Of a stretch of 28,571 bases of DNA, positions 23,104-28,428 are shown piece after piece. Within the stretch, counting starts at the first letter, position 1, and each line of letters opens with the position of its first letter. The translations under genes were made by a program, and so were the position numbers. This DNA comes from Nitrospirota bacterium (GTDB taxonomy: Bacteria > JACPQY01): the NCBI GenBank assembly GCA_016190245.1, contig JACPQY010000084.1:1-28571 (forward strand), in the 5' to 3' direction. Below the pieces are notes generated by a model that was not told the origin of the DNA, made no database searches, and saw only the letters and a list, made by a program, of their open reading frames with translations.

Positions 23104-23699
23104 ACCGACTACCGCACACCGGGAAGCGAGGAAGCCGCAAACAGGTTGCGACACCTCGTCCTCGTTCGACTCCCGACTCCCGACTGCCGACTGCCGGGCG
23201 GCCCCCAGGCCGCCTGTGGGCCCCTTGGCGCATGCAGTACATCGAGAACGTGGCTGAGCAGTCTGGATGCATCTTCTGTGTCCTGCCGAAGAAACGCCAG
23301 GACCAGCAGACGCTGGTCCTCCATCGCGACCCGACATGCTTCGTGATGATGAACCGCTACCCGTACAACAACGCGCACCTCATGGTGGTGCCCTTTCGGC
23401 ACACCGCCGATTTCCTGGTCCTGGAGGACCCCGAGAAACAGGCGCTGCTGACGCTCGTGGGCCACAGCGTGCGTATCCTGAGGGAGGTGTACAAGACGCA
23501 TGGCCTCAATGTAGGCGTCAACCTGGGCCGGGCCGCGGGCGCCGGGTACGAGGACCACGTGCATTTCCACGTCGTGCCACGATGGGTGGGCGACACCAAC
23601 TTCATGCCGATCTTGGGTGAGACGAAGGTCATCTCGCAGTCCTTGAGCGATACCTACAGGCGGCTCCGGCCGCATTTCCGCTCGCTCGACGGGCGGTAG
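23100..23699 (+). CDS. HIT-family nucleotide hydrolase/AP4A phosphorylase-like protein with repeat-derived N-terminus
   Basis: This 199-residue protein has a histidine-triad fold. The catalytic triad is H153-x-H155-x-H157 in EDHVHFHVVPRW. Upstream are CIFC, NRYPYNNAHLMVVPFRH and NVGVNLGRAAGAG, matching the bacterial branch related to diadenosine tetraphosphate (AP4A) phosphorylases. Family members normally begin shortly before the LWAPWRMQYI segment, here near residue 39. The preceding 38 residues are read from a heptamer-repeat element and are Arg/Pro-rich. The GTG at 23100 overlaps the aminotransferase stop and is the first in-frame start I see, but a later non-ATG start cannot be excluded. 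An ATG at 23233 would lose LWAPWR. It ends seven bases before pgeF, which has its own GGAGAGGG. Confidence 0.88.
   Translation: MNRLPHTGKRGSRKQVATPRPRSTPDSRLPTAGRPPGRLWAPWRMQYIENVAEQSGCIFCVLPKKRQDQQTLVLHRDPTCFVMMNRYPYNNAHLMVVPFRHTADFLVLEDPEKQALLTLVGHSVRILREVYKTHGLNVGVNLGRAAGAGYEDHVHFHVVPRWVGDTNFMPILGETKVISQSLSDTYRRLRPHFRSLDGR
23154..23195 (+). repeat. Degenerate heptamer tandem repeat inside the 5' end of the HIT gene
   Basis: Six consecutive 7-base units read CCTCGTC, CTCGTTC, GACTCCC, GACTCCC, GACTGCC, GACTGCC. The upstream bases from about 23105 continue loosely with the same period and include CGCAA-acagg-TTGCG. The unit GACTGCC also occurs in the element between the tRNA genes (26571-26598). 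Confidence 0.65.
23197..23214. other. GC hairpin just after the heptamers in the HIT gene
   Basis: GGCGGCC and GGCCGCC form a perfect 7-bp stem around a 4-base CCCA loop, directly after the last heptamer and about 20 bases before an in-frame ATG. It may be part of the repeat element or may affect translation of the HIT message. Confidence 0.5.
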
Positions 23700-26336: not shown

Positions 26337-26340
26337 TTGC

Positions 26341-26397
26341 CGGGAGCGTAAAGCGCAAAGCGGAAAGAGTAAAGCGACTCCGAACCCTTCCGCTCCC
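26341..26397 (+). repeat. Heptamer-repeat element downstream of tRNA-Ala
   Basis: Consecutive 7-base units read CGGGAGC, GTAAAGC, GCAAAGC, GGAAAGA, GTAAAGC (26341-26375). GGGAGCG (26342-26348) pairs with CGCTCCC (26391-26397), so the element can fold on itself. The unit sequence differs from that of the other copies but the 7-base period is exact. Confidence 0.6.
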
Positions 26398-26423
26398 TCT
26401 TGCTGCTCACCGTTCACTTCCCA

Positions 26424-26496
26424 TGGAGACGAGGGGATTTGAACCCCTGACCTTCCGGTTGCAAACCGGATGCTCTCCCAACTGAGCTACGTCCCC
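26424..26496 (-). tRNA. tRNA-Ala (anticodon UGC)
   Basis: The 73-base sequence folds as a full cloverleaf on the minus strand: acceptor GGGGACG/CGTCTCC, D-arm GCTC...GAGC, anticodon arm TCCGG-TTTGCAA-CCGGA, and T-arm AGGGG-TTCAAAT-CCCCT. The anticodon is TGC. The acceptor has the G3-U70 wobble pair that is the alanine identity element. The 3' CCA is not encoded. Confidence 0.97.
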
Positions 26497-26500
26497 GGAT

Positions 26501-26599
26501 GATCGGCAGTCGGTAGCCGGAAGTCGTGAGTTGCCGACAAACCACCATGCTCCGGTTTGCTTCCATTTCCGACTGCCTACTGCCGACTTTCGACTGCCG
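26501..26599. repeat. Palindromic heptamer element between the two tRNA genes
   Basis: The left arm has five 7-base units (GATCGGC, AGTCGGT, AGCCGGA, AGTCGTG, AGTTGCC; 26501-26535). The right arm has the reverse sense (GACTGCC, TACTGCC, GACTTTC, GACTGCC; 26571-26598). In the middle CAAACC/GGTTTG form a perfect 6-bp stem with a 10-base loop. The arms are complementary in part (CGGCAGTCGG with CCGACTGCC). The element fills almost the entire tRNA spacer. Confidence 0.65.
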
Positions 26600-26604
26600 A
26601 GCAA

Positions 26605-26680
26605 TGGGCCCGGGTGGACTTGAACCACCGACCTCCCGCTTATCAGGCGGACGCTCTAAAACCACCTGAGCTACGGGCCC
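26605..26680 (-). tRNA. tRNA-Ile (anticodon GAU)
   Basis: The 76-base minus-strand sequence folds with acceptor GGGCCCG/CGGGCCC, D-stem GCTC/GAGC, anticodon arm TCCGC-CTGATAA-GCGGG and T-arm GGTGG-TTCAAGT-CCACC. The anticodon is GAT. The D-loop (AGGTGGTTTTA, 11 bases) is two T longer than the usual isoleucine form. No CCA is encoded. It lies upstream of tRNA-Ala in the order known from rRNA spacers, but no rRNA gene is present. Confidence 0.97.
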
Positions 26681-26684
26681 GGAG

Positions 26685-26719
26685 ATCGTGAATCATGGAT
26701 CGTGAATCGTGAATCGTGA
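26685..26719 (+). repeat. Five-unit heptamer tandem repeat beside tRNA-Ile
   Basis: ATCGTGA, ATCATGG, ATCGTGA, ATCGTGA, ATCGTGA follow each other with an exact 7-base period, starting four bases upstream of the tRNA-Ile 5' end (on its strand). Four of the units are identical, the least degenerate copy in the window. The stretch from here to 26810 shows no gene or clear promoter. Confidence 0.8.
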
Positions 26720-26810
26720 AAAGTCAACGTCATCACACTTCCAGCGAAACAGGCCACGGACAAGCCCCCAACGAGCACCTATCTCGCGCGCGGTTGCGAC
26801 CAGCGATGTC

Positions 26811-27035
26811 CTACTTTGACCGCTCGAAATCTTCGACTTCAAGGCCTGCATCCTTCAAGACCTTGGACAACATCCTGGGGCCGATGGTTTCTCGATCATG
26901 GAATGCAAAGAGGAGCGCGCGTCCGTCGGAATGTTTGAGGAATCGGTGGCTTCCTCTCGATCTCTTCACCTGGAAACCGGCTCGTTCGAGGACTCGAAGA
27001 AGTCGCCGAGCTTTGATCTCGCCCAGCGCACCCAG
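26811..27035 (-). CDS. hicA: HicA-family mRNA interferase toxin, likely CTG start
   Basis: The frame reads GEIKARRLLRVLERAGFQVK, then RSRGSHRFLKH and LLFAFHDRETIGPRMLSKVL, a full HicA double-stranded-RNA-binding-like fold of 74 residues with the catalytic His in GSH (H30). HicA toxins cut mRNA. Between the upstream in-frame stop and this core there is no ATG, GTG or TTG. The best start is CTG 27035, six bases after GGAG and one base past the hicB stop, so the toxin is probably translated by coupling with the antitoxin. A rare CTG start would keep toxin output low. The order hicB-hicA is the reverse of the classic one. The gene is intact to its TAG. Confidence 0.85.
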   Translation of the reverse strand: MGALGEIKARRLLRVLERAGFQVKRSRGSHRFLKHSDGRALLFAFHDRETIGPRMLSKVLKDAGLEVEDFERSK

Positions 27036-27036
27036 T

Positions 27037-27264
27037 CTAAACTCCTATGCGGATCTGAACGGTAGCGGGGTGCTCTTGGCGGGGCAGCGGCTGACCGATT
27101 CCCGCCAACTCCTGAACGAAGAATTCCAGAGCCTTGCGGACCCGTTTCAGAGCTGATCGCCGCGAGCGACCGTACACATGGCAGCCGGGAACACCGGGCA
27201 CACTGGCTATGATGCGTCCGTCAGCTTCCCTCTCGAATACGACCACATATTTGGAAATCTTCAT
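27037..27264 (-). CDS. hicB: HicB-family antitoxin
   Basis: This 75-residue protein begins KISKYVVVFEREADGRIIAS, then VPGVPGCHVYGRSRRSALKRVRKALEFFVQEL. This is the partial RNase-H-like HicB fold (strand, strand, P-G-x-x-x-x-G turn, helix) that covers the HicA active site. It is the short HicB form and ends without a recognisable ribbon-helix-helix or HTH domain, so how it would repress its own promoter is unclear. The ATG at 27264 has only a weak GAGA ribosome site. It is followed one base after its stop by hicA. Many such pairs are horizontally acquired, and this one sits between repeats and an insertion sequence. Confidence 0.9.
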   Translation of the reverse strand: MKISKYVVVFEREADGRIIASVPGVPGCHVYGRSRRSALKRVRKALEFFVQELAGIGQPLPRQEHPATVQIRIGV

Positions 27265-27326: not shown

Positions 27327-27409
27327 TGTCCCGCGACAGAATGGCGGACGGCCCGCTTATTGAGGTCTAGATAATTAAAGGAAGCTGATGAACTGCCGAT
27401 ATACTCTGC

Positions 27410-28428
27410 ATGAGGCCGCATGGCTCCCCGCAGGAACTGGAACGTCGGCGGAGAGAGGCGGTGGGTCTGCTGCGGAAGGGGTGGACGTGGCGATCGGTTA
27501 CCTCTCACGCAGGTTGTTCGTTCAGTTCGGTCAGCCGATGGGTGAAACAAGTTCGACGGGGCGGCTTGAGCGCGTTGAAACCGAAGCCCGCGCCGGGGCG
27601 GACACCGAGGTTGACGCGGCCGCAGAAGCGGCAGTTGATTGGGTTGCTTCTCAAGGGGGCGATGGCCTCCGGCTACCGGACCGAGTTGTGGACGTGTCAA
27701 AGGATCGCCGAGGTCATCCGGAAGCGGTTCGGGGTGCGGTATCATCCCGACTACGTCGGCCCGCTCTTGCGGTCCATGAACTGGAGTTGGCAGAAGCCGG
27801 AGCGGCGTGCGGTCGAGCGCGACGAGGTCAAGATCGAGCGCTGGAAGCGACAGAGGTGGCCCGCCGTAGAAAAAAGGCCCGGGGGCTGGGCGCCCATCTC
27901 GCCTTCCTCGACGAGAGCGGTTTCCTCCTCATCCCCAATCTGAGGAAGACCTGGGCCCCGGTCGGGCAGACTCCGATCCTGCGTCACCACTACAAGCGGG
28001 ATAAGATCTCGGTCATCTCCGCGCTCACGGTGTCGGCGCGTCGGCGCCGGATGGGACTGTACATGCAGTTCCACGAGAAAAACCTCACCGTGCAAGAGGT
28101 CATCCGGTTCCTCCAGCATCTCCTGCGCCATGTCCCCGGTCCCGTCATCTTGTTGTGGGACGGAGGGTCCATCCACAATGGTCCCAAGATCCAAGCCTTC
28201 CTCAAGAGGCATCTCCGGCTCCGAGTCGAGCGGTTTCCCGGATACGCCCCCGACCTCAATCCCGACGAGTTCGTGTGGAACAATCTGGACCACGCCCTCT
28301 CGAACGGTCGGCCCGACCACCTCGCCGGCCTGCGTGAGAACCTGCGCCGGTCGGTCCGCCGCCTTCAGCAGTCCCAACGTCTTCTCCGGGCCTGCATCAA
28401 CGCCTCCGATCTCCCGCTGCGACTATGA
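27410..28428 (+). CDS. IS630-family transposase made by -1 frameshift
   Basis: The first frame (27410 to about 27874, full open frame to 27943) encodes the helix-turn-helix part (VSRWVKQVRRGGLSALKPKP and a winged-helix region). The second frame, one base back, encodes the catalytic DDE domain: FLDESGF (first Asp), LLWDGGSIHNG (second Asp) and PGYAPDLNPDEFVWNNLDH (Glu). Joining them at the A6G run gives about 339 residues, the normal size. No stop interrupts either part, so the gene looks functional and frameshifting is programmed rather than a decay mutation. A GTG or ATG start for the second frame alone (27388) gives a nonsense N-terminus. Confidence 0.9.
27870..27876 (+). promoter_or_regulatory. 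Slippery A6G frameshift site
   Basis: AAAAAAG lies where the HTH frame must shift by -1 to enter the DDE frame: zero frame reads GAA-AAA-AGG, shifted frame AAA-AAG-GCC. A GC-rich stretch (GGCCCGGGGGCTGGGCGCCC) follows directly and may form the stimulating hairpin. Such A6G sites are known in IS630 and other IS families. Confidence 0.75.

Follow-up and report, generated by a model that had tools for sequence, protein, structure and literature searches.

The seven-base blocks that flank and separate two tRNA genes in the analysed window, an entire contig of 28,571 bp from a Nitrospirota assembly (3.29 Mb, 84.8% complete), are heptanucleotide tandem repeats of exactly 7-nt period, in excess of chance expectation, and such repeats are dispersed and mainly intergenic in the genome. 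They belong to a genome-wide habit of rebuilding spacers from heptads around unchanged genes, which is common to scattered unrelated bacteria and was partly described earlier. The explanation we favour, with a probability of roughly 55%, is that they are degenerate repeats of the LSSR/STRR kind, often palindromic, which arose by replication error and turn over in transcribed non-promoter spacers.

Heptanucleotide blocks around the tRNA pair

Two tRNA genes and three period-7 blocks had been reported in the initial annotation, and all of them were recovered as real features using ARAGORN, Rfam, Tandem Repeats Finder and a lag-match scan. A fourth block, absent from that annotation, was located in a 128 bp spacer that separates an aminotransferase gene from a HIT-domain gene.

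23167-23196: fourth block, CGACTCC CGACTCC CGACTGC CGACTGC CG
26341-26376 (period-7 run 26345-26376): block 1, AGCGTAA AGCGCAA AGCGGAA AGAGTAA AG (Tandem Repeats Finder and lag-match scan)
26424-26496, minus strand: tRNA-Ala (TGC) (ARAGORN and Rfam)
26503-26531: block 2, 5′ arm, TCGGCAG TCGGTAG CCGGAAG TCGTGAG T
26538-26559: block 2, central short inverted repeat in the loop, CAAACC-(10)-GGTTTG (read from the sequence)
26572-26600 (period-7 array 26569-26600): block 2, 3′ arm, inverted heptads ACTGCCTACTGCCGACTTTCGACTGCCGA
26605-26680, minus strand: tRNA-Ile (GAT) (ARAGORN and Rfam)
26685-26720: block 3, direct array of ATCGTGA x5 (Tandem Repeats Finder and lag-match scan)

Block 1 lies between the 3′ end of tRNA-Ala and a small membrane-protein-like ORF with its likely ATG at 26338 on the minus strand, and the 3′ arm of block 2 has copies of about 97% identity over 32 nt at C79:111786 and C63:21643 of the same genome (G000). 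The usual home of a tRNA-Ile/tRNA-Ala pair is the 16S-23S spacer; here the pair (26424-26680) lies away from any rRNA gene within the window.

When lags of 2-15 were scanned along the window, more than one match was obtained at 7 and at its double, 14, only. Period-7 scores were 15 for block 1, 22 for block 3 and 21 for the fourth block, whereas none of 200 dinucleotide-shuffled versions of the window exceeded 14; the 3′ arm of block 2 alone scored 13, which was matched in 2.5% of dinucleotide shuffles. The middle block had been described as an organised element with inverted arms, and this held: block 2 is an imperfect inverted repeat (26503-26531 versus 26572-26600), its arm match score of 15 was equalled in 0 of 2000 mononucleotide shuffles, and its single-strand DNA fold had a z of -3.2. 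Neither block 1 nor block 3 is a hairpin: no significant one was obtained for either, and both folded no better than shuffles. A candidate hairpin of block 1 with 26384-26423 was not significant (p 0.22), and no inverted partner of block 3 was detected downstream (p 0.64). The window units GGCAGTC, ATCGTGA and AGCGTAA contain no G3 tracts capable of forming G-quadruplexes.

Period 7 across the genome

About 25% of each of two genomes was sampled, comprising 828 kb of G000 and 392 kb of G001, the one other genome of the phylum used for comparison, which is of the same family and a different genus; the two assemblies are drafts split into many contigs. In the G000 sample, 50 period-7 arrays scored ≥14. 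The corresponding numbers were 0-1 for lags 4, 5, 10, 11 and 13, against 8 for lag 8 and 26 for lag 14, and dinucleotide shuffles yielded zero period-7 arrays at a comparable cut. G001 had 52 period-7 arrays in 392 kb, versus 0-4 at nearby lags. The initial annotation had staked its claim on seven-base periodicity being more common in the genome than in shuffled sequence, and genome-wide it lay far above the shuffles. Nor are the blocks unique to this spot: besides the fourth block, ATCGTGAx2 (at most two mismatches) was found at 83 places in the genome, versus 3 for the reversed word.

Unit families are many, including ATCGTGA, GTGAACA, GGCAGTC, AATCTCA, GCTGAAA, GGTTCCT, CTTTACT and others, and units are degenerate inside one array. 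Clustering is strong, as 19 of 51 elements fell in L052-L054 (G000:C79:20001-80000) and 14 of 47 in L104 (G001:C10:30001-50000). A smaller excess of period-8 arrays was seen in the G001 sample (e.g. L115:7235-7340 and L105:806-842, with CGTGAGCC and GAGCCCGT); these resemble heptads with one extra base, and lag 8 was raised in G000 too (8 arrays versus 0-1).

Placement relative to genes

The arrays fill spacers inside gene strings, and most of them flank protein genes. The special tie to tRNAs proposed at first is therefore not upheld and a tRNA-specific element is ruled out, and a role in tRNA processing becomes unneeded because the same elements sit between protein genes. Divergent (promoter) spacers accounted for 2 of 39 elements, versus 109 of the 484 spacers of ≥60 bp (p 0.0036). 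Where a stop codon was the nearest gene boundary, 41 of 73 arrays started ≤15 nt from the stop. The orientation of GTGA in relation to stops and starts showed a weak trend only. Gene calls were hexamer-based with over-extended starts. Many arrays scored as in-gene are situated at the extremities of ORF calls that run too far, but some occur well within an ORF call.

Unit replacement at orthologous spacers

Orthologs of G000 and G001 had a median protein identity of 55%. The tRNA-Ala/tRNA-Ile spacer of G001 again contained two inverted heptad arms, AGTCCTG x4-5 ... TACTCAT/CACTCAG, and is of near-equal length in the two genomes, with unrelated units. Beyond tRNA-Ala, at the place orthologous to block 1, G001 had the heptads CTCAGTC/CTCATCG/CTTAGTC, and beyond tRNA-Ile, at the place orthologous to block 3, no heptads were found. 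The ortholog of the fourth-block spacer is 127 bp long and carries a heptad palindrome, GTGAAGT...CATCACC.

Among orthologous neighbouring gene pairs, heptads were present in both genomes in 4 spacers, in one genome in 11 and in neither in 82 (Fisher p 0.004), and the corresponding figures for orthologous spacers of ≥80 bp were 4, 4 and 23 (p 0.002), small numbers in both cases. The four shared spacers had lengths of 128/127, 441/486, 632/633 and 813/853 bp and differed in their units. Two of the four contain tRNA genes, several of which are near-identical across the genomes, whereas the heptads between them are not. At the multi-tRNA locus G000:C56:5200-6012 / G001:C3:283058-283910, near-identical tRNAs are separated by fully rewritten spacers, and the spacer after the tRNA ending CAAATCCCTCCCTCTCCA is a heptad palindrome in both genomes.

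In two genera, the same spacers thus hold period, size and palindrome while swapping sequence. Such spacers can mimic conserved regulatory or mobile elements though their letters are not conserved, which calls for caution.

Inverted pairs and their polarity

A reverse-complement partner within 220 bp, accepted when it surpassed those in the flanks of 95% of the other arrays, was found for 32 of 144 arrays (about a fifth), with approximately 7 expected. The exact word ATCGTGAx3 was used to retrieve further loci from many phyla, with at least 117 stretches of the genome collection carrying it; this introduces a bias in unit and none in polarity. In all, 77 inverted pairs were gathered, with a median arm of 29 nt and a median loop of 51 nt (range 6-161 bp). 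Block 2 and its G001 ortholog are both convergent inverted heptad pairs of the type reported by Rehm et al.

One polarity was observed across many phyla. The 5′ arms of the 77 pairs contained GTGA 284 times and TCAC 0 times, GTG 330 versus CAC 3 times, and GGG 81 versus CCC 1 times. In 386 diverse genomes, the convergent arrangement GTGAx3-gap-TCACx3 was found at 40 places (some overlapping, in 4 genomes), versus 1 for the divergent arrangement, and controls read backwards left the sense unchanged (13 for AGTG...CACT versus 2 for CACT...AGTG). Avoidance of start codons is an unlikely source of the polarity, because pairs in tRNA spacers obey it too.

Unit order was modestly mirrored between arms (observed 19.3 versus 18.3 in shuffled order, p 0.0017), with arms trimmed to their best match, which favours mirroring; strong single cases, such as L181 and L158, were few. 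An alternative measure of mirrored register by shifting the arms was discarded as biased, the best diagonal being chosen, and shuffling of unit order gave a far weaker effect. On the transcribed strand, the mismatches within pairs comprised 18 G-U and 22 A-C (40 informative mismatches, low power).

Distribution in other bacteria

When N runs and AT-rich matches were excluded, twenty 20-kb stretches from other phyla were nearly free of such arrays, and RTCGTGAx2 was present in 28 of 386 genomes. Loci with ATCGTGA arrays contained 120 additional period-7 arrays in 588 kb, a few of which were runs of N, versus 2-16 arrays at other lags. The heptad trait is patchy, and since ATCGTGA genomes carry other heptad arrays too, it is a property of the genome rather than of one word. 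In a Halomonas-group species pair (L168 versus L187), the flanks of an array are common to both and its length differs by 21 nt, i.e. three units. The 6.1 Mb genome G323 (L318-L329) had 666 matches to AGTGCTRAGTGCTR, many of which are heptad arrays (AGTGCTG), some of them in convergent pairs.

Comparison with known heptanucleotide repeats

Observations of heptad repeats in different groups go back decades, with their cause unsettled. Cyanobacterial STRRs are reportedly a subject of Jackman and Mulligan (1995; cited in PMC4284476).

The initial annotation knew of no description of such a family around tRNAs. This was only partly right, as convergent pairs with variable units had been published for Xanthomonas (PMC4692102) and 7-bp repeats forming hairpins for heterocystous cyanobacteria (PMC2670836), and the window elements are therefore a wider variant of heptanucleotide repeats. 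What is added here is another deep lineage, many unit families within a single genome, unit replacement at sites conserved between genera, tRNA spacers among them, and a single cross-phylum polarity. A literature search by the literal repeat sequences returned unrelated papers only.

In Xanthomonas, Rehm et al. (2015) reported 70 and 75 convergent inverted pairs of GGGAATC repeats per genome, situated near gene ends and few in divergent spacers, and left their function open; in two species, the same gene pairs had repeats of different lengths and sequences (PMC4692102). The GGGAATC / GGGGA(C/T)T repeats of Xanthomonas and Nostoc share with the present arrays their degenerate, intergenic heptads near gene ends (PMC4692102). 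They form, however, one G-rich family per genome and were studied with a focus on G-quadruplexes, whereas the arrays described here belong to many unit families within one genome, mostly without G-tracts, show turnover between genera as well as in tRNA spacers, and follow one polarity in many phyla.

The kinship to cyanobacterial STRRs suggested in the initial annotation was supported; those of Calothrix, Nostoc and Anabaena are likewise seven-base tandem repeats between genes, some hairpin-forming (PMC2670836). They belong to another lineage and appear to have other units; the descriptions compared are of single loci. For long simple sequence repeats (LSSRs), PMC4679880 summarises the work of Mrazek et al. 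(2007), in which seven was the commonest unit length and slippage with a 7-nt polymerase footprint or contact was proposed. That count was of perfect repeats, unlike the present ones, and inverted pairing and polarity do not appear in that summary.

Short intergenic arrays are also known as TAACTGA in Beggiatoaceae (PMC4679880) and as heptads of Geobacter metallireducens, one class of which has a consensus, MTYCTGA, that resembles units found here (PMC2700814); in contrast to ours, these have a fixed consensus and a regulatory reading, and the Beggiatoa arrays point to start codons. REP/GTAG palindromes are short, intergenic and palindromic as well, but have a fixed sequence with a tetranucleotide tag and no heptad period. 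A GTAG-type family coexists with the heptads in these genomes: palindromes with GTAG-type tags lie beside a heptad array at L052:5110-5189 (G000:C79), and parts of them match many places of G001 at 74-100%, at times in tandem (C37, C44).

Origin of the arrays

Under the favoured explanation, slippage in seven-base steps during replication would extend and edit an array, and fold-back copying of the nascent arm against its neighbour may create or refresh the inverted partner. The spacer would serve as tolerated filler, its place and rough length being kept while the unit sequence is swapped, and the arrays would be largely neutral. Several observations agree with this account: period 7 is singled out genome-wide, units differ at orthologous spacers of similar length, divergent spacers are poor in elements, L168 and L187 differ by a three-heptad step, flanks do not recur, and G-U is not in excess over A-C on the transcribed strand. 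The 7-nt indels between Cyanothece strains count in the same direction (PMC4679880). However, inverted pairing, the fixed cross-phylum polarity and the recurring unit vocabulary are not predicted by simple slippage, and the mirroring of unit order is weaker than wholesale fold-back copying would yield.

Functional intercistronic RNA hairpins offer an alternative, in which selected stem-loops would act on co-transcribed genes and tRNAs by stabilising, processing or insulating them; as any pairing sequence would suffice, the units of both arms would drift together. Shared spacers of similar length with palindromes of unrelated units in two genera fit this idea, as do the strong folds and the sites within operons, often starting from the stop codon, and hairpins of cyanobacterial STRRs have been suspected of transcript stabilisation (PMC2670836). 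We nevertheless consider it unlikely, given that just about a fifth of the arrays have an inverted partner, that the 40 informative mismatches show no excess of G-U, and that blocks 1 and 3 fold like shuffles.

The fixed polarity is the interesting part of the results, and slippage, although favoured, does not explain it. The testable question that results is which step of replication, repair or transcription counts seven bases at a time and recognises GTGA in one direction. One sequence-polar, enzyme-directed process might make the convergent heptad palindromes across unrelated phyla, such as nicking or fold-back synthesis initiated at GTGA-like words only, and polarity and the seven-base step would then be signatures of a conserved machine possessed by some bacteria only; we regard this as rather doubtful.

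Also doubtful are the mobile palindromic elements put forward in the initial annotation. In a MITE- or REP-like element, the heptad arms would be terminal inverted repeats recognised by a transposase and the polarity would reflect the inward orientation of the ends, which would account most directly for a convergent polarity fixed across phyla. The patchy distribution is in line with this, as is block 3 without counterpart in G001, a diverged genome with orthologs about 55% identical. A palindrome with a tag and fixed ends is, however, absent from the blocks; neither loop nor edges are conserved, flanks do not recur, and the sequence shared between copies mostly ends with the heptads. Moreover, arrays are mostly single, many unit families occur in one genome, and loop lengths range widely.

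Binding-site arrays for a heptad-reading regulator or DNA-packaging protein, as proposed for Beggiatoaceae and Geobacter, can be largely dismissed: the Geobacter class-3 consensus MTYCTGA is close to ATCGTGA/GTCCTGA (PMC2700814) and the Beggiatoaceae arrays precede start codons (PMC4679880), but here the unit is not conserved at orthologous sites, dozens of units coexist, and the scarcity in divergent spacers speaks against promoter control.

Genes beyond block 3

Just past block 3, a pair of genes on the minus strand (26811-27264) encodes a HicA-like toxin (Pfam HicA_toxin, E 4e-10) and a HicB-like antitoxin, the latter with a match of E 1e-4, below the curated cut-off. Near the contig end, the plus strand (27388-28428) encodes a transposase-like product in which a DDE superfamily endonuclease domain was recognised (Pfam DDE_3, E 1e-24); we take it to be of the IS630 type.
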